DNA of 64,000 nucleotides, taken from assembly GCF_900120005.1 (NCBI RefSeq), contig NZ_LT635453.1, positions 1 through 64,000 on the forward strand, written 5' to 3'. This stretch comes from Holdemania sp. Marseille-P2844 (lineage in GTDB: Bacteria > Bacillota_I > Bacilli_A > Erysipelotrichales > Erysipelotrichaceae). Each line of letters starts with the position of its first letter. Positions within the stretch are counted from its first letter, which is position 1. Below the pieces are notes generated by a model, which saw only the letters and a program-made list of their open reading frames with translations, ran no database searches and was not told the origin of the DNA. Shown here one piece after another: positions 11,309 to 24,697 of this stretch. The translations under genes were made by a program, and so were the position numbers.

Positions 11309-11872
11309 TTAAATAAAGCTCAGCAGCGCGCTAATCACGCCCACGCCGACCATGACTTTGATCGGGCTTGGTTCCCATTTGCGCAGAATGAAGAACGCCG
11401 CCGCAAAGAAGATCAGATTCTGCGGGTCAAGAAATTCCAGACCGAAGCCCGCCGCGCCTTCTTTGAAGAACGCCAGCTTGCAGATCGACAGCCCCGCCGA
11501 AGCGATCAGAGCGATGACGACCGGGCGCAGACCGGACAGAATGCCTTTCATCAACGACAGGTTTTTATATTTGGTATAAACGTAAGCCAGGGATAAGACG
11601 ATGATGCAGGAAGGGGCCACGCAGCCGATCGTCGCGATGATCGCGCCCGGCAGACCCGCGATATGCGTGCCGACAAACGTCGCAGAGTTGATCGCGATCG
11701 GTCCCGGCGTCATTTCCGCAATCGTGATGATATCCGCAAACTGTGTCATCGTCAGCCACTGATGAATTTCAACGACCTGACTCTGGATCAGCGGCATCGC
11801 CGCGTAGCCGCCGCCGATGCTGAACAGGCCGATCTGGAAAAAGCTCAGAAACAGCTGGATAAAGATATTCAT
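11309..11872 (-). CDS. Chromate transporter ChrA-type subunit (second half)
   Basis: 187 residues, about five transmembrane helices, a single CHR domain with SIGGGYAAMPLIQ near the N terminus and AEMTPGPIAINSATFVG near residue 52. Short-chain CHR proteins work as heteropairs equivalent to one full-length ChrA. The start ATG overlaps the stop of the partner at 11869 (ATGA), implying translational coupling. Family members export chromate; in gut Bacillota the real anion is uncertain. The divergent LysR gene at 12590 probably regulates the pair. Confidence 0.88.
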   Translation of the reverse strand: MNIFIQLFLSFFQIGLFSIGGGYAAMPLIQSQVVEIHQWLTMTQFADIITIAEMTPGPIAINSATFVGTHIAGLPGAIIATIGCVAPSCIIVLSLAYVYTKYKNLSLMKGILSGLRPVVIALIASAGLSICKLAFFKEGAAGFGLEFLDPQNLIFFAAAFFILRKWEPSPIKVMVGVGVISALLSFI

Positions 11873-12474
11873 TTCTGTTCCTCCCCTTCTTTCGCTTTCT
11901 TCTCCCGCGTCATGTAATCCACTGTGCCGATCGCACCGCAGACGACGATGATGATCAGGATGTTAACCTTAAAGTAAACGCTGGCGATGAACGCCGCGAC
12001 CAACAGGAAATACTTGACGACGTTCTTTTCTTTCACTAATCCCTTTAACATGTTCCAGACGACGTCCAGAATGACCGCCGCCACCGCCGCCTGCATGCCA
12101 CGCATCACGGCGCTGACAATCGGCGAACTGCGGAACGCCGCATAGAAATAAGAAATAATCGTTAAGATAATTAACGGCGGCAGCACCGTCGCCACGATGT
12201 TGACCAGCGCGCCCGGCACCCCTAACAGCCGGTAGCCGATGATGATCGAACCGTTGACCGCGATTGCGCCCGGGGAACTCTGGGCAATCGCCACCATGTC
12301 CAGCATTTCTTCCTCGTCGATCCAATGCAGCTCATCGACAAACTTCTTTTTCATCAACGGGACAATGACGAACCCGCCGCCGAACGTAAACATGCTTAAC
12401 GTAAATGTCGAAGCGAACATTTTTGCATACATTTGTAATTTTGAAGGCTTTTTCTTCTCTTCCATTTGTGTCAT
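11869..12474 (-). CDS. Chromate transporter ChrA-type subunit (first half)
   Basis: 201 residues with one CHR domain: TFGGGFVIVPLMKKKFV near residue 33 and AIAQSSPGAIAVNGSIIIGYR near residue 65. A Lys/Glu-rich cytoplasmic N terminus and a charged C-terminal tail (REKKAKEGEE) frame about five helices. The start is the ATG at 12474 behind GGAGGAAGAAGAG; the open frame reaching 12546 crosses the promoter and is not used. It forms a coupled two-gene operon with the partner at 11309 and is divergent from a LysR regulator. Confidence 0.88.
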   Translation of the reverse strand: MTQMEEKKKPSKLQMYAKMFASTFTLSMFTFGGGFVIVPLMKKKFVDELHWIDEEEMLDMVAIAQSSPGAIAVNGSIIIGYRLLGVPGALVNIVATVLPPLIILTIISYFYAAFRSSPIVSAVMRGMQAAVAAVILDVVWNMLKGLVKEKNVVKYFLLVAAFIASVYFKVNILIIIVVCGAIGTVDYMTREKKAKEGEEQK

Positions 12475-12493
12475 CTCTTCTTCCTCCCGCTCT

Positions 12494-12561
12494 ATTATAA
12501 GACTTGTGTTCTCATAAAGACAATAATATAATTTTATAAATAACATATCATTTTTGATATG
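12494..12561. promoter_or_regulatory. Overlapping divergent promoters and LysR-type palindromic box
   Basis: Plus strand (lysR): TTGTGT (12504-12509), 17 bp, TATAAT (12527-12532). Minus strand (chromate pair): TTGTCT (12518-12523), 18 bp, TATAAT (12494-12499). The two promoters interlock, so polymerase can occupy only one at a time. The perfect palindrome CATATCA-TTTT-TGATATG (12544-12561) lies just downstream of the lysR -10 and upstream of the chromate -35. It fits a LysR recognition site giving autorepression and activation of the transporter. Confidence 0.7.
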
Positions 12562-12589
12562 AATTCGATTTCAGGAAGGAGCGTTGATT

Positions 12590-13480
12590 ATGACCCTGCG
12601 TCATCTGCGGATTTTTGTTGAAGTCTGCCGCACGGGAAGCATCACCAAGGCCGCGGAAAGCTTGCATTTGAGCCAGCCGGCAGTCTCGCTGGCGATCCGA
12701 CAGCTGGAGGAATACTATGGAATTCTCTTATTCGACCGGATCTCCAAAAAGTTGTATCTGACGGAATCGGGCAATAAGATGCTGAGCTATGCGAGCCACA
12801 TCATCGAATCGTTCGACGATATGGAGACGCAGCTGAAAAACTGGGACAGCGCGGGAACGCTGCGGATTGGTTCCAGTATCTCAACCGGGACACAGATGCT
12901 GCCGCAGTTAGTCCGGCGCTTCAACCTGCGGTTTCCCCAGATCCGCACGCAGGTTCTGATCGACAATTCACGGATCATTGAAGACAAAGTGCTGACGAAC
13001 CAGCTTGACCTGGCGTTAGTGGAAAGCTTGTCGTATTCGCCGGATATCGTCTGCGTACCGTTTTACACCGACCGGCTGATCGTCATTACGGCCCCAATGC
13101 ATCCGCTGACTCAAAGTCCCAAATGCACAGTCAAAGCGCTTGCCGATTACCCGGTATTATTAAGAGAACCGGGCAGCGGTACCCGCGAGGTCGTCGACGC
13201 CCTGCTGGTCACGGCCGAGGTTCAGATCACGCCGCTGTGGGAAAGCACGAGCACCCGCTCGATCATCAACGCCGTCAAGGAGAACATCGGGATCTCGATT
13301 TTGCCGTATGAGCTGGTCAAAAACGAAATTCAAAGCGGTGCGATCGCCGGGCTGCCGCTGGCCTCCCCGCTGCCCAACCGCACCTGCAGCATCATTCACC
13401 ACCGCAACAAATACCTGACGCCCTCCGCTCAAGCATTTATTGAGGTCTGTCAGGAATACTCCAACCTTTCCCCGCAATAA
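12590..13480 (+). CDS. LysR-family transcriptional regulator
   Basis: 296 residues. The N-terminal winged helix-turn-helix is classical (LRHLRIFVEVCRTGSITKAA, then LHLSQPAVSLAIRQLE, residues 2-60), followed by a periplasmic-binding-protein-like effector domain (about 88-290). The start is the ATG at 12590, eight bases after AGGAAGGAG; a TTG at 12584 is only two bases from that site and is unlikely. It is divergent from the chromate transporter pair and shares a promoter region containing an 18-bp palindrome, so it most likely controls that pair. The effector is unknown. Confidence 0.9.
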   Translation: MTLRHLRIFVEVCRTGSITKAAESLHLSQPAVSLAIRQLEEYYGILLFDRISKKLYLTESGNKMLSYASHIIESFDDMETQLKNWDSAGTLRIGSSISTGTQMLPQLVRRFNLRFPQIRTQVLIDNSRIIEDKVLTNQLDLALVESLSYSPDIVCVPFYTDRLIVITAPMHPLTQSPKCTVKALADYPVLLREPGSGTREVVDALLVTAEVQITPLWESTSTRSIINAVKENIGISILPYELVKNEIQSGAIAGLPLASPLPNRTCSIIHHRNKYLTPSAQAFIEVCQEYSNLSPQ

Positions 13481-13755: not shown

Positions 13756-14886
13756 TCAGCGGTTGATTTCCAGCAGCTTCTGATTGAGCTCTTTTTCGAT
13801 CTTGCGCAGCTCGGCTTCGGCTTCGATCCGCTTCTGGCGGCCTTCCTTCTGAATCTGAGCGACTTCGTCCAGCGTCGAGATCAGCGCTTCGTTGGTATGC
13901 TGCAGCGTTTCGATATCGACGATGCCGCGCTCGGATTCCTTCGCGGTTTCGATCGTTGCCATTTTCAGCGTGTCGGCGTTCTTCTTCAGCAGCTGGTTGG
14001 TCATCTCGTTGACCTCGCGCTGAGCTTCCATCGCCTGCTTGGAGTGGTTCAGGCCCAGCGCCAGCACCATCTGACTTTTCCACAGCGGAATCGTGTTGAC
14101 CAGCGTCGACTGGATTTTTTCCGTCATCAGCGTATCATTATTCTGAACCAGACGGATCTGCGGCGCCATCTGCAGAGCGACCGTGCGCGTCAGTTCCAGA
14201 TCGTGAATCTTCTTTTCAAACCGATCGCAGGCGTTGGCCAGATCGTTCGCCTTCTGCGCGTCTTCCGGCAAACCGCTCTTCTGCGCGGCGGCGATCAGCT
14301 GCGGCAGATCCTTGCTTCGAACTTCCTGCAGCTTTTTCTTGCCCGCTAAAATATACATCGTCAGTTCCTTGAAATGAACCATGTTTTTCTCATACAGCTG
14401 ATCCAGAAGAGCGATATCGCGCATCAGCGTGATCTGATGATCCTCCAGCGCCTTGGAAATCTTATTGACGTTTACCTCGGCCTTGTCATACCGGGCTTTC
14501 ATCTTTTCCATCTTGTTCGTCGTTTTCTTGAACATGCCGAACAAGCCTTTTTCTTCTTCTTCATCGGCAGAGAAACCTTTCAGCTCGCCGACCAGATCCG
14601 CCATCATCTCGCCAACTTCGCCTAAATCCTTCGTTCTGACGTTCTGCAGAGCGGAATCGGAGAAATCCGCGATTTTTTTCTGGGCTTCCGCGCCATACTG
14701 CAGCACGGTTGTGGACGAGGTAACGTCGATCTGTTTGGAAAAGTCGTCGACCATTTTCTGTTCTTCCGGACTTAATTTCACTTCCTGCTGCTGATCGGCA
14801 GTCTCCATCTGTACAGCCGGCTCCGCAACGGTTTCTTCTTCTGTGATCTGGGGATTCAGCGTCAGCGTAATTTTCTCTTCAGCCAT
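13756..14886 (-). CDS. TelA/YaaN-family protein (toxic anion resistance family)
   Basis: 376 residues, soluble, almost entirely helical with long coiled-coil stretches. The whole length matches the TelA/KlaA family (PF05816): an acidic N-terminal tail, the LGEVGEMMADLVGELKGF segment near residue 85, DIALLDQLYEKNMVHFKELTMYI near residue 157, and the conserved QMAPQIRLVQNNDTLMTEKIQSTLVNTIPLWKSQ-type block near residue 235. Some members were found in tellurite resistance loci, but the true function is unclear and is linked to envelope stress. It has its own promoter (14930-14958) but is the last gene of a conserved cluster with xpaC- and AAA-type genes. Confidence 0.9.
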   Translation of the reverse strand: MAEEKITLTLNPQITEEETVAEPAVQMETADQQQEVKLSPEEQKMVDDFSKQIDVTSSTTVLQYGAEAQKKIADFSDSALQNVRTKDLGEVGEMMADLVGELKGFSADEEEEKGLFGMFKKTTNKMEKMKARYDKAEVNVNKISKALEDHQITLMRDIALLDQLYEKNMVHFKELTMYILAGKKKLQEVRSKDLPQLIAAAQKSGLPEDAQKANDLANACDRFEKKIHDLELTRTVALQMAPQIRLVQNNDTLMTEKIQSTLVNTIPLWKSQMVLALGLNHSKQAMEAQREVNEMTNQLLKKNADTLKMATIETAKESERGIVDIETLQHTNEALISTLDEVAQIQKEGRQKRIEAEAELRKIEKELNQKLLEINR

Positions 14887-14929: not shown

Positions 14930-14958
14930 ATCTTAGACGGTCGCTTTCCGCTTGTCAA
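14930..14958 (-). promoter_or_regulatory. Separate promoter of telA
   Basis: Minus strand: TTGACA (14953-14958), 17-bp spacer, TAAGAT (14930-14935), 44 bp ahead of the telA start. It follows a terminator at 15111-15135, so telA can be expressed apart from the upstream genes. The remainder of the 308-bp gap (14887-15194) holds these two elements and no gene. Confidence 0.75.
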
Positions 14959-15110: not shown

Positions 15111-15135
15111 AAAAAGCTGCCGCAGAGGACAGCTT
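15111..15135 (-). terminator. Intrinsic terminator (possibly leaky) after the AAA ATPase gene
   Basis: AAGCTG (15114-15119) pairs with CAGCTT (15130-15135), and on the minus strand is followed by TTTTTCG. The short stem suggests partial read-through into telA. Confidence 0.55.
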
Positions 15136-15194: not shown

Positions 15195-17318
15195 TCATGC
15201 GGACAGTTCGAGATCGAAGTCTTCCCGAAGCAACAGATCCATTCGTACCTGCGGGTCGCTGAGAATGCGGCGGGATTGGTTCAGGATCGCTTTTTCCACC
15301 GTGTTGCGGGCCAGACGGCCGTTGCCGCTGCGGGCGGCGGAATTCATCTGGACGGCGTTGAAATAAATCGTCAGATCATTCAGACAGCTCTCGTCGATCA
15401 CATAATCTTTGCCCTGCGCCAGCGAAACAGCGATCTGCGTCAGTTCGCTGCCGGTGTAGTCGGCAAAATTCAGAATATTCGGGAACCGGGATTTCAAGCC
15501 GGAATTGGCGTTGAGGAATTCTTCCATCTCACGGCTGTAACCCGCGAGAATGACGATCAGATCGTCGCGGTGATCTTCCATGCCCTTAACCAGCGTATCG
15601 ACGGCTTCCAGACCGAAGCTGTCGTCCTTGCCGCGGACTAACGAATAGGCTTCGTCGATAAACAGCACGCCGCCCAGCGCGGATTCGATGATCTGCTGGG
15701 TCAAAGGCGCGGTATGGCCGACATAGCGGCCGACCAGATCGCTGCGGCTGACCTCGATCAGCTGCCCCTGCGTTAACAAGCCGAGCGCCTTAAACAGCCG
15801 GGCGACCAGCCGGGCCATCGTCGTCTTGCCTGTCCCCGGATTGCCGGTAAAGATCATGTGGCGGGACAGCGGGGCGGCTTTTAACCCTTGTTTCTGCCGC
15901 AGCTGCGTCACTTTGTAATGTTCTTCCATCGACCGCAGCGTGTCCTTGACTTCCTGCAGACCGACGATCGCGTCCATTTCCTTGCGGATCGCGTCAAGAT
16001 CGTCCTTTTCCAGCCGGATCAGATCCGAAATCGCCAACCGCTGGCCGTTCACTTCAAAAACCCATTCCCGTCCCGCTTCCGCACGAACCTCCAGAACCGG
16101 CTCCGGCTGCTTCAGGCACAGCTCGTTTAAGGCTGCGTTCAGCTGACGCACATCTTTTTCCAGAGCCAGTGCCCCGGCAGAGGTTTCCAGAACCGCCAGC
16201 CGTTTCTGCGCCGCATCGTCGTCCAACAGGAGCGTCACGTTCAGCTGTTTCTTCGCGGTCTGCACGCTTTCGTTTAATAACCGCTGATAAATCGTCAGCA
16301 GCACCTCCTGACTTAACGGCTGGGTTGCCGGCTGATCAAGAATCTGTTCCACCATCGAATTCGGGAAGTTCTGCATCAGTGCCTTGCGTGAAGTCGTCAG
16401 AAAGACGATATATTTGTTCGTCAGCTTCAAGGTGGACACCGTCTGCGTCACTAACGAGCTGCCGGCTTCCACCAGTTGTTTTCCTTTATTCAAAACGTAG
16501 CGCTTGTTTAACGTCACTTCTTCATTTTGACACAGCTTCATCAGCTGGTTGAGAAAGGGCGGATACAGCGCTTCCGCCTGTTCGATCACGATCACTTCCG
16601 CCGGTGCGCAGGATGCCGCGTAAATATCCTGAATGAAGACTTTTTCCTGATCGCTGCCGGCATAATGCGAGCCGTTGATCATCACGACCTCCGCACTGGC
16701 CAGCCAGTGTTTTTCCGCCAGAATGTTGATCATCGTGGCCAGGGCCAGATGCCGGCCGCTGCCGGCCGGGCCGCTGATCACAAATACATTGCGCAGCTGG
16801 TCCTCCGGCTGCCCGCTGGCCAACGGGCGGAAAAAAGCCCGCGCCAAATCCGCCAGAAACGGTTCCTGACCTAAAACGACGGTCTCCGTCTGTTTTGCGG
16901 CTTCCTGCATTCCATTCAGCACGGCCCGCAGATCCTGAGCCTGCCGCTTCTGATGATTCTCGACGTCGACCGAAATCCCGAAATCCTTCTGCACCTCGGC
17001 CTGCAGCTTCGCAAAATCCTGATCGGTAAACCCCAGATCGCGGGATTGATCGCGCAGGGCCTCTGCTTGTTTCTGTAAATCCTCGCTCTGCTGATGCAGG
17101 ATCGCGTTGAGCTGATCGACGGCGTTTTCCGTCGTGCTCAGCGTATCCTCCACTTGTTTCTGATGTGACTGTGCCTGATCCAGACCCGTCTGCACTTCAT
17201 TCTGACTTTTTTTAACCTGTTCAAGATAGTCTTCGGCCGAAACGGTATTCAGCCGGTGACCGCGGAACATCGAATTCATCAACTGTTCCAGATCTTTTTT
17301 TTCATTATCCTTTGCCAT
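15195..17318 (-). CDS. Two-domain AAA+ protein: degenerate N-terminal AAA plus active SpoVK/CbbX-like AAA+
   Basis: 707 residues. Residues 30-115 form a Gln/Glu-rich coiled coil. Residues 146-350 have an AAA fold whose Walker A reads GPAGSGRH (183-190) instead of GxxGxGKT and whose Walker B reads VIVIEQ instead of hhhhDE, so this domain should not hydrolyse ATP. Residues 445-700 are a canonical SpoVK/CbbX-type AAA+ domain: GNPGTGKTT (492-500), VLFIDEAYSL (551-560), and GLKSRFP with the arginine finger near 611. CbbX-type motors remodel other proteins. It lies 10 bp downstream of the unknown gene at 17329 and upstream of telA, suggesting an ATP-driven partner of TelA and XpaC. Confidence 0.88.
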   Translation of the reverse strand: MAKDNEKKDLEQLMNSMFRGHRLNTVSAEDYLEQVKKSQNEVQTGLDQAQSHQKQVEDTLSTTENAVDQLNAILHQQSEDLQKQAEALRDQSRDLGFTDQDFAKLQAEVQKDFGISVDVENHQKRQAQDLRAVLNGMQEAAKQTETVVLGQEPFLADLARAFFRPLASGQPEDQLRNVFVISGPAGSGRHLALATMINILAEKHWLASAEVVMINGSHYAGSDQEKVFIQDIYAASCAPAEVIVIEQAEALYPPFLNQLMKLCQNEEVTLNKRYVLNKGKQLVEAGSSLVTQTVSTLKLTNKYIVFLTTSRKALMQNFPNSMVEQILDQPATQPLSQEVLLTIYQRLLNESVQTAKKQLNVTLLLDDDAAQKRLAVLETSAGALALEKDVRQLNAALNELCLKQPEPVLEVRAEAGREWVFEVNGQRLAISDLIRLEKDDLDAIRKEMDAIVGLQEVKDTLRSMEEHYKVTQLRQKQGLKAAPLSRHMIFTGNPGTGKTTMARLVARLFKALGLLTQGQLIEVSRSDLVGRYVGHTAPLTQQIIESALGGVLFIDEAYSLVRGKDDSFGLEAVDTLVKGMEDHRDDLIVILAGYSREMEEFLNANSGLKSRFPNILNFADYTGSELTQIAVSLAQGKDYVIDESCLNDLTIYFNAVQMNSAARSGNGRLARNTVEKAILNQSRRILSDPQVRMDLLLREDFDLELSA

Positions 17319-17328
17319 GGATTATCCT

Positions 17329-17916
17329 CTAATAGACTTTCAGCGCGGCCGCAAGCCGGTCGCTGATCTCTTCCATCATCAAATCGCGTGACTGCTTCAA
17401 CGCGCGCGCGACGAGCTTCAGGCCGTCGTAATAGCCCTCGTCATATTTATTGCTTCGCTGACGGGAATTCTGTTGGTAATATTTGCGGATTTCCTCGTCG
17501 ACGATCTTTTCATACATCATCATATCATTCTGGTTGATCGCCATGCGGCGCAGATAGCGCTGAAGTGCATCCTGATGCCCATCGCGGTAATAGCCGCGCT
17601 GACGCGGAGGATACACGACGTTTTCCAGCATCTCCCGCACATACTCATAGCGCGTGCGGTAACGGCCGTGACGGCGATGCACGGCGGCGCTGACCGGACG
17701 TTTGCGGGTCCGGCTGCTGCCGCTGAGACCCTCCTGAATCTCGCCGCTGATCAGATCGCTCATCGTATCGTAGCCCTGTTTGCGGGCTTCCTCATTGATC
17801 GTGTCGCGCACCATCTGTCCGAAATCGGCGAGGTTGGTATTCATGAAATCTTTATCATTGAAGTGTTTATCAAACAAATCATCTAAATAATCGGTGTTTT
17901 TACGTTTCTGACTCAT
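17329..17916 (-). CDS. Conserved-looking hypothetical protein, Arg/Tyr-rich
   Basis: 195 residues; I do not recognise the family. The N terminus is acidic (DYLDDLFDKHFNDKDF), followed by a short basic stretch around residue 70 (SRTRKRPVSAAVHRRHGRYR) and a helical C-terminal half rich in Arg, Tyr and Asn with YDEGYYDGLKLVARALKQSRD near the end. There is no signal peptide or transmembrane helix. It lies between xpaC (8-bp gap) and the AAA gene (10-bp gap), so it is cotranscribed and is probably a soluble adaptor or substrate of the AAA protein. That role is inferred from position only. Confidence 0.75.
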   Translation of the reverse strand: MSQKRKNTDYLDDLFDKHFNDKDFMNTNLADFGQMVRDTINEEARKQGYDTMSDLISGEIQEGLSGSSRTRKRPVSAAVHRRHGRYRTRYEYVREMLENVVYPPRQRGYYRDGHQDALQRYLRRMAINQNDMMMYEKIVDEEIRKYYQQNSRQRSNKYDEGYYDGLKLVARALKQSRDLMMEEISDRLAAALKVY

Positions 17917-17924
17917 GGATTCAC

Positions 17925-18875
17925 CTACTTTCTGACGCCGGAGAGCGTGCCTTCCTGAACCAGACCATCTTTTTTCAACAGGGCTTCCAGCGTGGTCATG
18001 TCAGCGGATAAACTCATCAAATCGTCTTCCGCCATCGTCGCGCTGATCGTTTTCATCGCTTCGTTGATCAGAATGATCGTCTTGTTCAGGCGATCCTCCG
18101 CTTCATGGAAATCTTCATGATTGGACGCAGACTGGCCGATGTTCTTGTAATTTTCCAGAATGTCCAGCAGAATCGGCAGATAGTATTGATAGAGCTTGTC
18201 GAGCTTATCTTTATTCTCCGGGAATTTTTCCTCAGCGATCGCCAGATGTTTCAACAGCGCGCAGGTCTGGTACAGGCCGTTAGTGATGGACTCGTTGGCA
18301 ATCTCGGTATTCAGAGCGTTGATTTTTTCAATATAGGCTTCCGCCCGATCCAGCTCCGGCTGAGCCGGCTCTGCCTGCGGCAAATCGGCTTCTTCCGCCG
18401 GGACTTCTGGTTTCTGATCAGCCGTGGTCTGCGGTTTTTCTTCCGTCTGCGGCTGTTTGGCGAACTCCACCAGTAAGCGCAGAATCTCGTTATACAACCG
18501 CGGATAGCGTTCGCCGAACTCGTCGAGCGTGCCGATGCAGTCGTCGTCCTTCAGCAGGACCAGATTGCGCAGTCCGGTGTATTCCGCCTTTTCCGGCCGC
18601 AGGCTGATTTCTTCCAGCAGCGGCAGCTTTTCATGCGTGCGGAAATAGCGGCTCAGCGCTTCGTTGACCAGATCGCTCTGCCGGCCGGACAGACGCGTGC
18701 GGCTTTGTCCGGAAGAAGAACGCCGGCGGATTGTCTGCCGCTCCTCATTATTCTTTGTCACTGATTTATAAATGATGAAAAAGATGATCAGCGGAAAAAG
18801 CAGGCCGCTGAAGATCCCGCCAAATCCAAAGATAATCATAAAAAACAACACCGGAAATATCCAGGAATTTCTCAT
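17925..18875 (-). CDS. XpaC-like membrane protein (5-bromo-4-chloroindolyl phosphate hydrolysis family)
   Basis: 316 residues. Two close hydrophobic helices form the N terminus (residues 5-37), then a basic linker, a region like a degenerate J-type or helical module (50-130), and a Pro/Glu-rich spacer (145-185). The C-terminal helical domain (190-300) contains KLDKLYQYYLPILLDILENY, the XpaC hallmark. XpaC is a membrane-associated protein of unknown activity; the name derives from an X-Phos phenotype in Bacillus. XpaC and TelA/YaaN genes are neighbours in many Bacillota. It is the first gene of the cluster, with an extended -10 promoter at 18933-18941. Confidence 0.75.
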   Translation of the reverse strand: MRNSWIFPVLFFMIIFGFGGIFSGLLFPLIIFFIIYKSVTKNNEERQTIRRRSSSGQSRTRLSGRQSDLVNEALSRYFRTHEKLPLLEEISLRPEKAEYTGLRNLVLLKDDDCIGTLDEFGERYPRLYNEILRLLVEFAKQPQTEEKPQTTADQKPEVPAEEADLPQAEPAQPELDRAEAYIEKINALNTEIANESITNGLYQTCALLKHLAIAEEKFPENKDKLDKLYQYYLPILLDILENYKNIGQSASNHEDFHEAEDRLNKTIILINEAMKTISATMAEDDLMSLSADMTTLEALLKKDGLVQEGTLSGVRK

Positions 18876-19122: not shown

Positions 19123-20388
19123 CTATAACGTTGCCAGCCAGTCGCCGATCTCACGGATCAGCTGTTCTCCGGCGCCCTTTTCAAACGGACTGCTCATCGC
19201 TTCGTAGAACTGCTGGTCATAGGCGTTTTCATCCGCCATATACAGCGAATAGCCGTTGGTGTAGCCGATGAATTCCGCGTTCCAGCGCGCCTTCACCGGA
19301 TTGCTCAGCTTGCTGAAAAGCTCGACCGGCACGGTGATCAGCTTGACGGAAGGCAGCTGAATGCAGGAAATTGACAGCGGGATCTCGCGCAGACCGGAAG
19401 CGTTGCGGCAGGACAGTAAATTATTCTCCGCACCTTCTTTCAGCGATTCCAATAAACGCAGTGCTTTGGCATCAGCGCCTTCGCTGCGCGCCTGTTTGAC
19501 CTGTGCGCTCAGCGTCCTTACTTTTTCTTCCGCGACTTCAACCGAATCGAGGACCTTGGCCTTCACCATGAAGGTTTTCTGATGAACCTCAAGCGTCAGA
19601 TTCGCGCCCGGGGACAGCGGCTCCGGCTGGTTCAGCAGCGTTTTCAGCTGATCGGCCGCCAGCTGCGCCATTCGCTCCATTTCCGCAAAGCTGGATTCCC
19701 GGCGGGTAAACCGTGTGCTCATATCGCCGCAGCTGCCGTTGACGAAGGCGACCATCTCCGCATCCGCGAAGCAGCTTTCCAACGCGCCCGGAAAGTCTGC
19801 GCTCAACATCAGATTTTCGCCGTTGAGCACCGTCGGATGACAGGCCATGCGCGTCCATAGACAGCGTTTCTTATCCTGCGTGATCAGTTCCAGAACAAAC
19901 GCGTCCTGATCGCTTGGCAGCGTTGGATCATGCCGGTCGGTCCCCAACCCGCTGACGGTGCCGCGCAGAATCCGCCACGAAAACGGTTGTTTCTGCGTCC
20001 GCAGCCGCTCGACACCCGCCGCAATCCGCCGGGCGGTTTCCGTTACATAACAGGCGTTATACTCGCCGAAAACAGGTTCCAGTCCCTTTAGAATTCCCTG
20101 ATCGCAGCGCACCGTGCCGCAGGGGCCGGAATGCGTATGCGTCGAAGAAAGGATCAGATGCGGCGCATGAATCCCCGTTAATTCCGCAATCTGTTGGTAA
20201 AGCATGGCGTCCGCCGCACACCAGTCGATCTGGATCCACAGCGTCTCCTGTTCCCCGCTGAACAAAAGCAAACGGGCATACAGCGGATCATGGGCAGTCT
20301 GTGCCCAGCGGATCTTGCCGAAGCCGGAAAGCCGGACCGGCAGCGCCGGGGTGACGTCGATTTTTTCAAAGCTGACCTGCATTGTCAT
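19123..20388 (-). CDS. Neutral/alkaline ceramidase-like protein (PF04734 N-terminal domain type)
   Basis: 421 residues. The N-terminal region matches the neutral ceramidase catalytic domain: KIDVTPALPVRLSGFG at the start, THTHSGP near residue 84 (zinc-binding His pair), and ACHPTVL near residue 184, then VNGSCGDMSTR. In true ceramidases a Ser attacks the amide of ceramide. This protein is much shorter than secreted ceramidases (about 640 residues) and lacks a signal peptide and the C-terminal Ig-like domain. It is therefore probably an intracellular hydrolase of unknown amide or ester substrate. Monocistronic. Start ATG 20388 with GGGAGGAAAC upstream. Confidence 0.7.
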   Translation of the reverse strand: MTMQVSFEKIDVTPALPVRLSGFGKIRWAQTAHDPLYARLLLFSGEQETLWIQIDWCAADAMLYQQIAELTGIHAPHLILSSTHTHSGPCGTVRCDQGILKGLEPVFGEYNACYVTETARRIAAGVERLRTQKQPFSWRILRGTVSGLGTDRHDPTLPSDQDAFVLELITQDKKRCLWTRMACHPTVLNGENLMLSADFPGALESCFADAEMVAFVNGSCGDMSTRFTRRESSFAEMERMAQLAADQLKTLLNQPEPLSPGANLTLEVHQKTFMVKAKVLDSVEVAEEKVRTLSAQVKQARSEGADAKALRLLESLKEGAENNLLSCRNASGLREIPLSISCIQLPSVKLITVPVELFSKLSNPVKARWNAEFIGYTNGYSLYMADENAYDQQFYEAMSSPFEKGAGEQLIREIGDWLATL

Positions 20389-20612: not shown

Positions 20613-21386
20613 TCATGAATTATGCGGCTGGACAGACTCCAGCCGGGCATGAACGACAAACCGGCGCTCCCCGTTATCCGAACAGGTCGACAACGTCAGA
20701 ACCGAATCCGCCCGGGTTGCTTCCACATCGGTTTTGTATAACGCCCGTTCATGAAAGCCCTGGATGAACTCCGCGTAGGTTTCATCGTGACCAAAGCCGA
20801 TCGTATAGACGTTAAACGCGTCCGGCTGCGCATATTCAACGGAAAATATCCGATATCTCCGTGTTTCCGCAGGCAGGCTGATCGTAATCTCTCCGCCGAA
20901 TTGGGAATAGAAATCCGCATTGGCATACTGCTTCAAGCTGCCGAACATACTTCCGTCGTTCATACTGTGACCATAGAGAATCGTATGCAGGTCGTTAAAG
21001 TCCGGCTGATTCTCCCATTCCATGAAAATCGCTCCATACCGGCTGACGCGGTCATCCCAGGTATGGCGCAGATAATATGTATCATCAGAGCCTTGAACGA
21101 TCGGATAATCAATAACTTCCAATCCGGCAATGCGGATCCAGCCGACCACATGCTTTGACACGCAGCGCAGTCCGGCAAAATCCACAGAAAAGTCCGCAGC
21201 ATCTTCAGAACCCGCCGGCTGCGCGCTCACATAGCGGCTGACAGCCTCTTCCCGGGCTTTCTGATGATTCCGGCTTTCCTCAATATAACGGCTAAATTGA
21301 AAAGCGCAGTAAACCAACACGCCGATGCAGACAGCCATACCGGCAAAGATCAAACGCTCCTGTCCGGTTTTTTTTCGTTGCTTCAT
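20613..21386 (-). CDS. srtB: Class B sortase
   Basis: 257 residues: a cytoplasmic basic tail, one signal-anchor helix (about 12-33), then an extracellular sortase domain (about 75-250). Catalytic residues are visible as H140 in LYGHSM, C235 in LSTC, and R242 in RRFVVHARL. The spacing and the long beta6/beta7 region are those of class B enzymes. It would attach surface proteins to peptidoglycan or crosslink fibre subunits. Its likely substrates are the proteins at 22236 and 23197, whose tails carry TPQSGG and SPLTSD before a transmembrane helix. It is divergent from the SipW-type peptidase across a 129-bp region. Confidence 0.92.
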   Translation of the reverse strand: MKQRKKTGQERLIFAGMAVCIGVLVYCAFQFSRYIEESRNHQKAREEAVSRYVSAQPAGSEDAADFSVDFAGLRCVSKHVVGWIRIAGLEVIDYPIVQGSDDTYYLRHTWDDRVSRYGAIFMEWENQPDFNDLHTILYGHSMNDGSMFGSLKQYANADFYSQFGGEITISLPAETRRYRIFSVEYAQPDAFNVYTIGFGHDETYAEFIQGFHERALYKTDVEATRADSVLTLSTCSDNGERRFVVHARLESVQPHNS

Positions 21387-21458
21387 CCTGCTCCCCCCTT
21401 TCTGTCTGAAGCGCTGACAACGCTCACTGACGTTTTCCTCGCTTCCCTCTGTCTTTTA

Positions 21459-21490
21459 ATTTGACACTGCCCGTCAAATCGCTTTACAAT
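21459..21490 (+). promoter_or_regulatory. Promoter of the SipW-type peptidase, with an inverted repeat over the -35
   Basis: TTGACA (21461-21466), 18-bp spacer, TACAAT (21485-21490). The inverted repeat ATTTGAC-N7-GTCAAAT (21459-21465 with 21473-21479) straddles the -35 and spacer and is a candidate operator. The -10 overlaps an upstream ATG at 21489, which rules that codon out as a start. Confidence 0.7.
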
Positions 21491-21515
21491 GAAGATAAAC
21501 GTTAGGAGTCTGAAT

Positions 21516-22061
21516 ATGAAAATACAACCGCAAATCAAAACGGATTTATCCTCGCCAGGACAGCGCCGGCTGAGCGTTGTCTATCATGGCGCCGGTCTGA
21601 TTCTGATTTCAGTTTCACTGTTTCTGATTTTATTTTTGACCCTGCCCCCGCTTTCCGGGCTTCATCTTTACGCCATAACCAGCGGCAGTATGGAACCGGG
21701 TATTCCCACCGGCAGTCTGGTCTGCGCAAAATCGGCGGATCCCGCTGCCGTTTCCAGCGGCGAGGTCATCGTTTTCCGCGCAGGCGCGGCTTCATCCTCC
21801 GTCGTCACCCACCGGGTCGTGGAAAATCAATCGGAACATTCACAGTTGATCACAAAGGGCGACGCCAATCAGGCGGAAGACCGCGAACCGGTCGCGTATG
21901 CCCGCTTCATTGGCAAAGTCGTCGCGGTCTTTCCCGGGCTGGGCCCTCTGGCTTTGTTTTTATCCAGTCCTTCCGGCAAATTCATCATGCTTGCGCTGTT
22001 GGCGGCCGCCGCCCTTCTGATGTTTCTGGGCGATCAGCTGAAAAAGCCTACCCGGTCTTAG
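21516..22061 (+). CDS. sipW: SipW-type signal peptidase I
   Basis: 181 residues: two transmembrane helices at the N terminus (about 28-50) and one at the C terminus (about 150-172). Box B TSGSMEPGIP carries the catalytic serine (S58). The usual lysine is replaced by histidine in VVTHRVV (H99), the mark of the archaeal/ER-like SipW class, and TKGDANQAED is box D. SipW enzymes process TasA/camelysin-type precursors, exactly the kind encoded at 23981 and 24701. The start is the ATG at 21516, seven bases after AGGAG; the ATG at 21489 lies within the -10. A strong terminator follows at 22099. Confidence 0.9.
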   Translation: MKIQPQIKTDLSSPGQRRLSVVYHGAGLILISVSLFLILFLTLPPLSGLHLYAITSGSMEPGIPTGSLVCAKSADPAAVSSGEVIVFRAGAASSSVVTHRVVENQSEHSQLITKGDANQAEDREPVAYARFIGKVVAVFPGLGPLALFLSSPSGKFIMLALLAAAALLMFLGDQLKKPTRS

Positions 22062-22098
22062 CAAGTTCATATTTCCATTCCTCTTAATCAGTCAGACA

Positions 22099-22133
22099 AC
22101 AGAAGGACACCCTGCGATGTCCTTCTGTTTTTA
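22099..22133 (+). terminator. Terminator of the SipW-type peptidase gene
   Basis: Perfect 11-bp stem ACAGAAGGACA/TGTCCTTCTGT with an 8-base loop, followed by TTTTT. Confidence 0.92.
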
Positions 22134-22235
22134 CTTCTGTTGTCCGTATCGTTTTTTCAGAATGGACCCGCCGGAATCCTTTCCATTTTAAATCATTCTG
22201 ACGAGGAAATAAATCCGGACCGACTCTTTTCTCCT

Positions 22236-23195
22236 TTATTCCTCGCTGTCAGCTTCTTTTTCCTTCTTCATAACCACGATAATCAATCCGATTACAGCGA
22301 TCAGGGCAACGATACCGCCGATCATGAAGAGATTCATTCCGCCTGCCGCCTGGCCGCCGCTTTGCGGCGTTACCGCTTCTTCCACCGTTTCCTGCTGCGG
22401 AACTTCCTGGCCGCCGTTTGTCGGGGTGTTGTTATCTTCTACAACTTCTACCGGCTGCTCCTGTTGGCCGTTATTGACCGGCGGCTGCGGATTGTTGACC
22501 TGAACCCCGATTGTATTCGTCACTTCTTCCGTGCGCGTTACGGTCTCCACGTTCGTGTTGGTCGTCGTGCGGACGGCGGAGGCTTCGTAGACAAACGTAA
22601 ATTCATTCTCCGCGCTCTCCGCAGCCAGACGCGTGTTCTGAATCAGCTGCTGGCAAGCCGGCGTCGGCACATAGCCGTCGATGTTCAGCATGGCTGCCGA
22701 AATCGGATCGCCGATCGTGGCATAGAATGTCTGGGAAGCAGCCAGCGTCTGTCCTTCGGCGTCTTCGTAATGAATCGTGTAAGCCACCAGATTCCCCGGT
22801 ACGCTGTACGCCACAACGTAGCTGGCGTCGCCTTTTACCGTAATGACTTCATTGTTTTCCACGACGGCGTCGCGCCCGCTCAGGCGGTAGCCGCGGACAT
22901 GATATCGACCATCCGCGTGCGTCACCGCGCCTGCAGTTTGAACATTCAGCTGCACGGCGTCGCCATAATGCAGTCCGGAAATCGTCACTTCATGATCCGT
23001 TGCGGTTGCCTGAACCGGATTACCGTTGACCGTCACCGCATCAGCCATGATTTCAGTAAAGGCTCCGGAACCGGAGGACAGCGTAAGCGAATAGCCATAG
23101 CCCTGATTTTCTTCCGCCCTCAGCGCCGCAGCCTGACTGGCGATCAACGAGCATAACGTCAAGAATGTGACAAGCGCCCGCATCATTTTCTTCAT
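22236..23195 (-). CDS. Membrane-anchored surface protein with MucBP-like domain
   Basis: 319 residues. Signal peptide (1-28, cleavage after AALRA), a beta-rich domain, a MucBP-like module near residues 140-210 (AYTIHYEDAEGQTL, then GDPISAAML), and a Thr/Asn/Gln/Pro-rich stalk. The tail TPQSGGQAAGG is followed by a hydrophobic helix and a KKEKEADSEE end. The order of polar motif, helix and charged tail is that of a sortase substrate, but the motif is not LPxTG; TPQSG loosely resembles the (S/P)PxTG motif of Clostridioides class B sortase. Last gene of the surface operon, 1 bp after the gene at 23197. Confidence 0.75.
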   Translation of the reverse strand: MKKMMRALVTFLTLCSLIASQAAALRAEENQGYGYSLTLSSGSGAFTEIMADAVTVNGNPVQATATDHEVTISGLHYGDAVQLNVQTAGAVTHADGRYHVRGYRLSGRDAVVENNEVITVKGDASYVVAYSVPGNLVAYTIHYEDAEGQTLAASQTFYATIGDPISAAMLNIDGYVPTPACQQLIQNTRLAAESAENEFTFVYEASAVRTTTNTNVETVTRTEEVTNTIGVQVNNPQPPVNNGQQEQPVEVVEDNNTPTNGGQEVPQQETVEEAVTPQSGGQAAGGMNLFMIGGIVALIAVIGLIIVVMKKEKEADSEE

Positions 23196-23196
23196 C

Positions 23197-23967
23197 TTAC
23201 CGTTCCTCCTTTGCTTTTCTGCGTTTATTGATTCCGATCAGCACGATCAGCACGATCACCGCGCCTACGGCCAGTGCGCCGAGCAGCGGCAGCGAGCTTC
23301 CATCGGAAGTCAGCGGGGAAACAATCGTTTTCACCACGGTATTCACGATCGTGTTCGTTTTGGTTTCATTGACCGTTACGGTCGTCTCGGCAATCTCTGC
23401 CGCGAAGTACAGCGACAAAGCCGCTGATTTGCGCTGATAGGCGTTTAACAGCGTTTCCCCATCCAGTCCCAAGGTTAACGTTACCCTGGCCTGTTCGCCA
23501 TCCGCCAGCGTATCCAGATACAGATAATCGCTGCCCAGCGTCGGATTGATCTGATTTAAGCCCGCGCCGCCTTCCGTGCTTTCCCCGCCGACTGAGCGGC
23601 TGTCGTACAGCACCTGGGTCACAGCTGAAGCCCCCGGTTCCGTATAGGTTAACTGATAGGTATACGCGCCATCGGCCGCATCCGCTTCTTCAAAAATATC
23701 CAGAATATTGTTCTGAATGTACCAGTCTGCTTTTTCCCCGCAGACATTCTTCAGTGTAATCTCAATGCTGACGGTATCGCCCGGCTGCAGATCACTGAAG
23801 GAGTCAGCGAAATCCGCGGCGGTATAATTGGCTTTCATCTTTTGCCCGTCAAACGCGACCTGCCATTGATCCGATCCAGTCTGACTTTCTGCGGATACCG
23901 GCGTTGCCAGCGTGATCAGAAACCCGGCGGCGATCAGAAAGCTCATGGCTTTTTTCATCATCTTCAT
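23197..23967 (-). CDS. Membrane-anchored surface protein, possible fibre anchor
   Basis: 256 residues. Signal peptide (1-26, PVSA|ES) followed by a beta-sandwich-like ectodomain of about 180 residues; LQPGDTVSIEITLKN near residue 60 resembles TasA/camelysin-like folds. A Thr/Val-rich segment (VTVNETKTNTIVNTVVKTIV) then leads to SPLTSDGSSLP, a transmembrane helix and NKRRKAKEER. SPLTSD resembles the (S/P)PxTG class B sorting signal with Gly changed to Ser. Together with the sortase upstream this suggests wall attachment. Cotranscribed with its neighbours (1- and 13-bp gaps). Confidence 0.75.
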   Translation of the reverse strand: MKMMKKAMSFLIAAGFLITLATPVSAESQTGSDQWQVAFDGQKMKANYTAADFADSFSDLQPGDTVSIEITLKNVCGEKADWYIQNNILDIFEEADAADGAYTYQLTYTEPGASAVTQVLYDSRSVGGESTEGGAGLNQINPTLGSDYLYLDTLADGEQARVTLTLGLDGETLLNAYQRKSAALSLYFAAEIAETTVTVNETKTNTIVNTVVKTIVSPLTSDGSSLPLLGALAVGAVIVLIVLIGINKRRKAKEER

Positions 23968-23980
23968 GTTAACTTTCCTC

Positions 23981-24697
23981 CTATTCCGCCAAACTTAAAG
24001 TTCCATCATCCGCAATGTTGACCTTCACGCCCCAGGCGCTTAAGATCGCGTCCTGTGCGTTATTGACCTGCACGGCGTCCACTTCGGCGATCAGCTGCAG
24101 CTGCACGCTGTCCGCATCGTAATCATAAGAAGACACGACCGATCCATTTTCCAATTCGGTGTGGGTCAGGATTGAAGCGACTTTCGGATCGACGGAGATT
24201 TCTGTATTGAACATCACCGTTTCCGAAGCTTTTACAATGTGTTTTCCATAGAGAACAACCTGTTCTTTGTTTCCGGAGGCAGGAGCAACAATCCAGTCGG
24301 TATCCTTCAGCGACAGCCGAATCAGCGCCGGATCCAGTTCCGTTTCCGGAATCTCGGTCACCGTCGTTGATCCATCTTCGTTTTTGACCACTTTGACCCA
24401 GCGCCGGGTCACGATGACGCGGATATATTCCTCGACCTCGCCGGTATTCACAGCGCTGAGTTCTTCGGTGTAATTCTTGCCGGGAATGACGTTTTCCTTA
24501 AACGTATTCGTCAACAGTTCGCCTTCGTTGGGGATCAGCACGCCGTTTTCCACAAGCCCGACCGTTAGTTCGCTGGTCGCGATTTCAGCCGTATATTCTT
24601 CATTGCGGGCTGCCGGAACTGCCCGGGCCGCACCGACGCCCAGGGCGATGACCAGCACGGCCGCGCAGGCGATCAGACCATATTTTATTTTACGCAC
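23981..24697 (-). CDS. SipW-dependent TasA/CalY-like matrix protein
   Basis: 238 residues. The N terminus (MRKIKYGLIACAAVLVIALGV) is a long hydrophobic signal, followed by a TasA/camelysin-like jelly-roll domain: NTFKENVIPGKNYTEELSAVNTGEVEEYIRV is the family's segment in which added tail or strand residues allow fibre assembly. It lacks a C-terminal anchor, as expected for a secreted fibre subunit. The nearby SipW-type peptidase would mature it. It is 3 bp from the second TasA-like gene at 24701, within the surface operon. Confidence 0.78.
   Translation of the reverse strand: MRKIKYGLIACAAVLVIALGVGAARAVPAARNEEYTAEIATSELTVGLVENGVLIPNEGELLTNTFKENVIPGKNYTEELSAVNTGEVEEYIRVIVTRRWVKVVKNEDGSTTVTEIPETELDPALIRLSLKDTDWIVAPASGNKEQVVLYGKHIVKASETVMFNTEISVDPKVASILTHTELENGSVVSSYDYDADSVQLQLIAEVDAVQVNNAQDAILSAWGVKVNIADDGTLSLAE

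Follow-up and report, generated by a model that had tools for sequence, protein, structure and literature searches.

The DNA analyzed here, a stretch of 64,000 nucleotides from Holdemania sp. Marseille-P2844 (contig NZ_LT635453.1, hereafter the window), carries on its minus strand four genes whose products include relatives of XpaC and TelA together with a protein that has two AAA+ domains. Working names are used for three of these products: XpaC1 for the XpaC-like protein (gene at 17925..18875), P195 for a protein of 195 amino acids (aa) (17329..17916), and AAA2 for the tandem AAA+ protein of 707 aa (15195..17318). The fourth gene, telA, occupies 13756..14886. A preliminary description of this DNA had reported four genes running in one direction with very short spacers, and the open reading frames are arranged as claimed, with 8 base pairs (bp) between XpaC1 and P195, 10 bp between P195 and AAA2, and a longer gap of 308 bp between AAA2 and telA.

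The flanking proteins differ in how readily they can be classified. TelA is assigned to Pfam family PF05816 (431.9 bits with a cut-off of 30, E=2e-129), and its AlphaFold2 model (mean predicted local distance difference test, pLDDT, of 67) has helices at residues 118-204, 207-319, and 325-375, a predicted long helical hairpin. XpaC1 carries an N-terminal hydrophobic hairpin (approximately residues 4-40) and a C-terminal helical XpaC domain with a YYLP motif. It falls 0.7 bit short of the PF10112 cut-off (29.1 versus 29.8 bits), and it aligns with 11 orthologues and with the shorter XpaC2 proteins found in related operons. P195 is rich in Arg and Tyr and repeats YxDGH and GYYDGL motifs. Searches of Pfam and NCBIfam gave no family for P195, a profile search gave weak TPR-like matches only, and the alignment of 11 sequences is too variable to serve as a scan query.

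AAA2 consists of a coiled coil followed by two AAA domains of different types. In the full AlphaFold2 model (17 sequences in the alignment, pLDDT 79, predicted template modelling score 0.46), a putative long helix or coiled coil spans approximately residues 28-113 (16980..17237, minus strand, as are all features of this protein) at low confidence (pLDDT mostly 40-68). The first AAA domain, approximately residues 125-430 (16029..16946), is of the ClpA/B/C D2 type. When the N-terminal half was used as a profile against the PDB, the D2 domains of ClpC, ClpE, and ClpB were recovered (E=3.5e-18 for ClpC), and residues ~125-425 of the model match the D2 structures of ClpA, ClpC, and ClpB with Z scores of ~20-22 over ~265 residues (for ClpA, Z 22.6, root-mean-square deviation 3.1, 263 residues). 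The second AAA domain, approximately residues 437-704 (15207..16010), belongs with SpoVK, CbbX, and EccA; residues 434-707 of the model match CbbX (3syl) with a Z score of 25.4 over 268 residues, and Pfam places PF00004 (E=3e-21) and AAA_lid_6 in this region. Because the first domain resembles Clp D2 and the second CbbX, both by profile and by modelled structure, AAA2 is best described as a fusion of two distinct AAA+ lineages rather than the product of a domain duplication.

The first domain retains the Clp D2 fold and has lost the residue set of an active D2 domain (GxxGxGK[ST], catalytic Glu, GYVG, and arginine finger). This was surveyed in 28 AAA2 homologues, drawn from both Bacilli and Clostridia, in an alignment that included four Clp D2 domains. 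The catalytic Glu is absent in 28/28, as in the degenerate Walker B of the window protein (VIVIEQ, residues 242-247, 16578..16595), and the whole GYVG pore loop is deleted in 28/28. In the degenerate Walker A (GPAGSGRH, residues 183-190, 16749..16772), the Thr position is His in 27 of the 28 proteins, and the arginine finger is likewise missing from 27. Loss of the Walker A lysine, which had also been proposed, holds for this protein and is not general: Arg replaces Lys in 19 homologues, and nine keep it. The constant changes are thus the His in place of Thr, the missing catalytic Glu, and the pore-loop deletion. The sensor columns vary as well, in a part of the alignment that is less certain. 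A homologue fragment (L046) keeps GTGKT and has lost the Walker B pair. Since GxG[RK]H is near-constant across the homologues, it is, on this alignment, a signature of the AAA2 family and does not reflect decay in one genome. We infer that the first domain has long been without ATPase activity, and nucleotide binding may persist.

The second domain is intact, as the preliminary description had stated. It has the Walker A sequence GNPGTGKT (residues 492-499, 15822..15845) and the Walker B sequence LFIDEA (residues 552-557, 15648..15665), and in all of the 31 sequences compared the Walker motifs, sensor-1 GY, arginine finger, and sensor-2 Arg are kept. The pore aromatic is Tyr in 29 and Phe in two, and corresponds to Y532 in the window protein. 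Marks reported for the SpoVK-CbbX-EccA clade (PMC10659427) are also present, with G593-Y594, N605, R611, and R668/R671 invariant in 31/31, although the Asn spacing was not compared exactly with the alignment in that paper. AAA2 nevertheless scores below the NCBIfam cut-offs for SpoVK (TIGR02881, 299.8 versus 422.95 bits), CbbX (TIGR02880, 221.5 versus 459.25), and EccA (TIGR03922, 248.3 versus 466.65). In a tree of 99 C-terminal AAA domains, the 31 AAA2 rows fall on one side of a single branch (support 97/90), and together with the first CbbX-type domain of certain longer array proteins they form a group of 34 rows (100/97). SpoVK-type rows from Bacillus, identified by length and organism, group separately (100/100). 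By this phylogeny, AAA2 is a clade of its own, apart from SpoVK. The earlier suggestion of a CbbX/SpoVK-kind motor joined to a dead AAA domain is borne out.

The array proteins just mentioned (L146, L147, L148, L149, and L152; 913-1213 aa) have a head that matches the pseudo-ClpD2 profile and, after it, two or three CbbX-type domains, the last of which has GTGKK as its Walker A in L148, L149, and L152. Their hosts are a Lachnospiraceae bacterium, Lysinibacillus, Paraclostridium, Terrisporobacter, and Sporanaerobium. A further protein (L047:4781-7273) combines MORN repeats with two CbbX-type AAA domains; it comes from a relative in which TelA, XpaC1, and a P195 fragment are present and AAA2 is absent.

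This pairing of an inactive tier with an active one could be read in reverse, with the pseudo-ATPase ring doing the essential work, as a scaffold on which TelA assemblies are nucleated or anchored, and the CbbX domain driving only its own assembly cycle and pulling no client. The dead domain does retain conserved RP, QDLY, and KRY motifs and the Walker A His despite its lost catalysis. The pore Tyr/Phe and the complete set of motor residues in 31/31 CbbX domains suggest real client translocation, and the scaffold explanation is accordingly regarded as improbable.

Two conditions that the preliminary description had named as counting against a dedicated machine do not hold: the first AAA domain has not kept its ATPase residues, and the gene order is shared well beyond this genome. 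The series XpaC1-P195-AAA2, in many cases with XpaC2 and TelA next in line, is found across many genera of the window's family, and at one locus (L140) seven genes lie in a row, XpaC1-P195-AAA2-XpaC2-TelA-LemA-like-TPM. Among 106 genomes of the family, AAA2 was found in 45, P195 in 42, TelA in 58, and XpaC1 in 46. TelA is present in 45/45 genomes with AAA2 and in 13/61 without it (P=1.9e-18), and P195 adjoins XpaC1 in all 41 genomes that have both. In one set of 20 genomes, XpaC is present in 19.

Such an association could arise passively, from shared ancestry of gene order, since the genomes are related and telA is common. AAA2 and TelA are unlinked (not within 6 kb on one strand) in 19/45 genomes, some of which perhaps reflect contig breaks, yet they always occur together, and counting by genus gives TelA in 20/20 genera with AAA2 versus 11/39 without (P=3e-8). 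Because these 19 genomes show no linkage, the tie appears to be more than inherited gene order, and passive neighborhood is a very improbable explanation.

A class-wide search recovered clear AAA2 orthologues only in the window's family and one sister-family genome (16 genomes in total); low-scoring matches were rejected as orthologues, as they mostly fit ClpB/C/E instead. A scan of GTDB contigs revealed full-length AAA2 in Lachnospiraceae and other Clostridia at ~38-45% identity. In a sample of 200 Lachnospiraceae genomes, AAA2 is present in five and TelA in 100, and all five have both. Together with 12 genomes from the contig scan, 16/16 clostridial AAA2 genomes have TelA, which would have a chance of ~1.5e-5 if one genome in two carried TelA, although some of these genomes come from other families, in which the frequency of TelA was not determined. 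Among the related proteins there is an exception, the Sporanaerobium array protein, in whose genome no TelA was found. In the sampled genomes, then, dependence is one-way: AAA2 is not seen without TelA, and TelA is often seen without AAA2. TelA evidently works without AAA2, because the Lachnospiraceae sample has TelA in half of its genomes and AAA2 in only 5/200.

Clues to what the partner genes do come from envelope-stress studies. In B. subtilis, xpaC-telA belongs to the core sigma-W regulon (PMC3498285). In L. lactis overproducing membrane proteins, in a CesSR-dependent setting, xpaC-telA is upregulated 10.3-fold and 3.4-fold (PMC3139573). In Listeria, a bacteriocin induces xpaC-telA, and a telA mutant was reported to be nisin-sensitive (PMC12791056). 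Sub-membrane structures have been proposed for TelA, which is also counted in Ter systems (PMC7824862). Members of the SpoVK/CbbX/EccA clade are dedicated chaperones that act on a narrow range of targets and differ in their N-terminal domains; for example, CbbX pulls on the Rubisco tail and SpoVK activates MurG (PMC10659427).

Because xpaC-telA is an envelope-stress unit, sub-membrane structures are proposed for TelA, and the live domain belongs to a clade of dedicated chaperones, AAA2 might best be viewed as a dedicated, optional AAA+ protein that remodels the TelA-XpaC envelope-stress system, its dead domain serving as an inert ring or docking platform. We place the probability of this reading at roughly 45%. 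Held a little more tentatively is a version in which AAA2 represents an undescribed tandem AAA+ family, a dead ClpD2-type tier joined to a live CbbX-type tier, that serves gut Bacilli and Clostridia as a dedicated disassembly or recycling motor of a TelA-XpaC assembly, in a role like that of Vps4 with ESCRT-III. By analogy with CbbX, AAA2 would form a two-tier ring in which the catalytically dead ClpD2-type tier is fixed as a scaffold or docking platform while the CbbX-type tier works, its pore tyrosine Y532 tugging on the client. XpaC1, through its membrane hairpin, and its constant partner P195 may bring the ring to the membrane. Its client would be TelA, which is a predicted long helical protein, or the TelA-XpaC complex, and pulling driven by ATP could loosen and recycle the assembly after stress. 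The remodelling role is a prediction, as are ring form, recruitment, client, and direction of effect.

Several observations weigh against this remodelling proposal. The motor is an accessory rather than a core part outside the family, because it is absent from most TelA genomes there, and clostridial AAA2 genes usually stand alone among unrelated genes. The co-occurrence that is strict in the family is not significant in Lachnospiraceae taken alone (P=0.06), and because the genomes are related, P values overstate independence throughout. P195 was not found in 8/45 AAA2 genomes, and no AAA2-specific motif was found in TelA tails. In a rival reading, AAA2 is a dedicated chaperone for another envelope enzyme, as SpoVK is for MurG, and shares with TelA and XpaC only a stress condition and a regulon. 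Members of the clade do serve single unrelated clients (PMC10659427), and AAA2 is unlinked to telA in Clostridia. Since the family sample holds no AAA2 genome without TelA, and, short of a genome-wide search, no companion of AAA2 as regular as TelA and XpaC came to light, another client is considered somewhat unlikely.

Certain features of TelA were considered as candidates for a motor handle or a revealing resemblance. Most TelA proteins, regardless of AAA2, carry a short LTL(D/N)P-like peptide in a region corresponding to residues 1-40 (window 14767-14886), which is modelled at low confidence and is probably disordered. This peptide was rejected as a handle for AAA2, as it is present in genomes without AAA2 and absent from some that have it. 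A likeness of TelA to ESCRT-III or PspA was also set aside: the structures that it matches best are helical bundles and pore formers of the ClyA type, with Z ~12, within the noise expected for long helices, and neither PspA nor ESCRT-III appears among the matches, an absence that excludes nothing.

The membership of TelA in Ter systems (PMC7824862) raises the prospect of a tellurite or phage defence module of the Ter type. TelA does occur on a few IMG/VR contigs (L314-L319, some >170 kb), mostly with an XpaC-like gene directly upstream, and a single-sequence TelA scan of viral contigs gave no match. PADLOC yields only generic AAA matches, and the N-terminal half of AAA2 has one partial match each in plasmid and phage collections, with none covering 80%. 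Furthermore, no other Ter gene was recognized among the nearby proteins examined, though the genome was not searched for TerB, TerC, TerD, or signal-synthesis enzymes. A Ter-type role thus seems scarcely credible.

Further genes of the module, those that come after telA in relatives, lie elsewhere in the same genome. On contig C1 (L125:1599-3727), XpaC2, LemA-like, and TPM-domain genes lie in a row, apart from the window contig. The TPM assignment is strong (E=2e-31), and the LemA assignment is merely suggestive (E=1.6e-3 in L038, below the cut-off). TPM proteins linked to the module (L340, L348, L333, L352, and others) mostly end in [ST]RGxGAGR[RKH], whereas those in other contexts end in SRGGGAGGSW or similar. 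The tail [ST]RGxGAGR was rejected as a grip for AAA2: because the SRGGGAG core also occurs, ending GSW, in TPM proteins of genomes that lack AAA2, it is not AAA2-specific. In one assembly (G003, L032/L121), the AAA2 gene is split across 206 kb of a single contig, which is probably a scaffolding artefact because both edges are runs of N.

The preliminary description had also given telA a promoter of its own. A sigma-70-like candidate site, TTGACA-17-TAAGAT, is present on the minus strand at 14930..14958, 44 bp upstream of telA, with 10/12 consensus matches, and a terminator-like hairpin located by consensus scan only lies at 15114..15135 (minus strand) in the 308-bp gap. Both would fit a separate telA promoter, but the case is weak because promoter-like matches in the region are not above background (4 versus 3.3 +/- 1.7 in shuffles). 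Adjoining the operon is a gene for a neutral ceramidase-like protein (PF04734; window 19123-20388), beyond which a sortase, a signal-peptidase-like gene, and three secreted-looking proteins, one with MucBP, form a possible surface-fibre cluster (20613-24697). On the other side, a chromate transporter is encoded as two half-size genes with a divergent LysR regulator (11309-13480).

Although several Bacillota induce TelA and XpaC under envelope stress, neither protein has an agreed mechanism, and a motor that is never found without TelA in the sampled family offers a handle on how they work. AAA2 is, moreover, a further example in which a conserved pseudo-ATPase tier is coupled to an active tier of another AAA+ lineage. 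In the open-access papers searched, no link of TelA to an AAA+ motor and no pseudo-ClpD2/CbbX tandem was found, although an earlier description is possible; TelA does not figure in the text of PMC10659427.

AAA2 and its operon can be compared with three known systems. Like the D2 domains of ClpA, ClpB, and ClpC, the first domain has the D2 fold and matches ClpC/ClpB D2 profiles, but it lacks the catalytic Glu, Walker A Thr, pore loop, and arginine finger, and neither a Clp N domain nor a D1 domain is seen in the protein. The C-terminal domain shares with SpoVK, CbbX, and EccA its fold, Walker motifs, GY sensor 1, Asn before the arginine finger, sensor-2 Arg, and pore Tyr, whereas AAA2 lies well below all three NCBIfam cut-offs, stands apart from the SpoVK clade, is fused to a pseudo-ClpD2 domain, and is linked to TelA and XpaC. 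Finally, B. subtilis xpaC-yaaN (telA), Listeria lmo1966-1967, and L. lactis llmg_1115-1116 likewise keep an XpaC-like gene and telA together. Unlike those units as reported, the locus described here places P195 and a tandem AAA+ protein between xpaC and telA, and related operons add a second XpaC as well as LemA-like and TPM genes.

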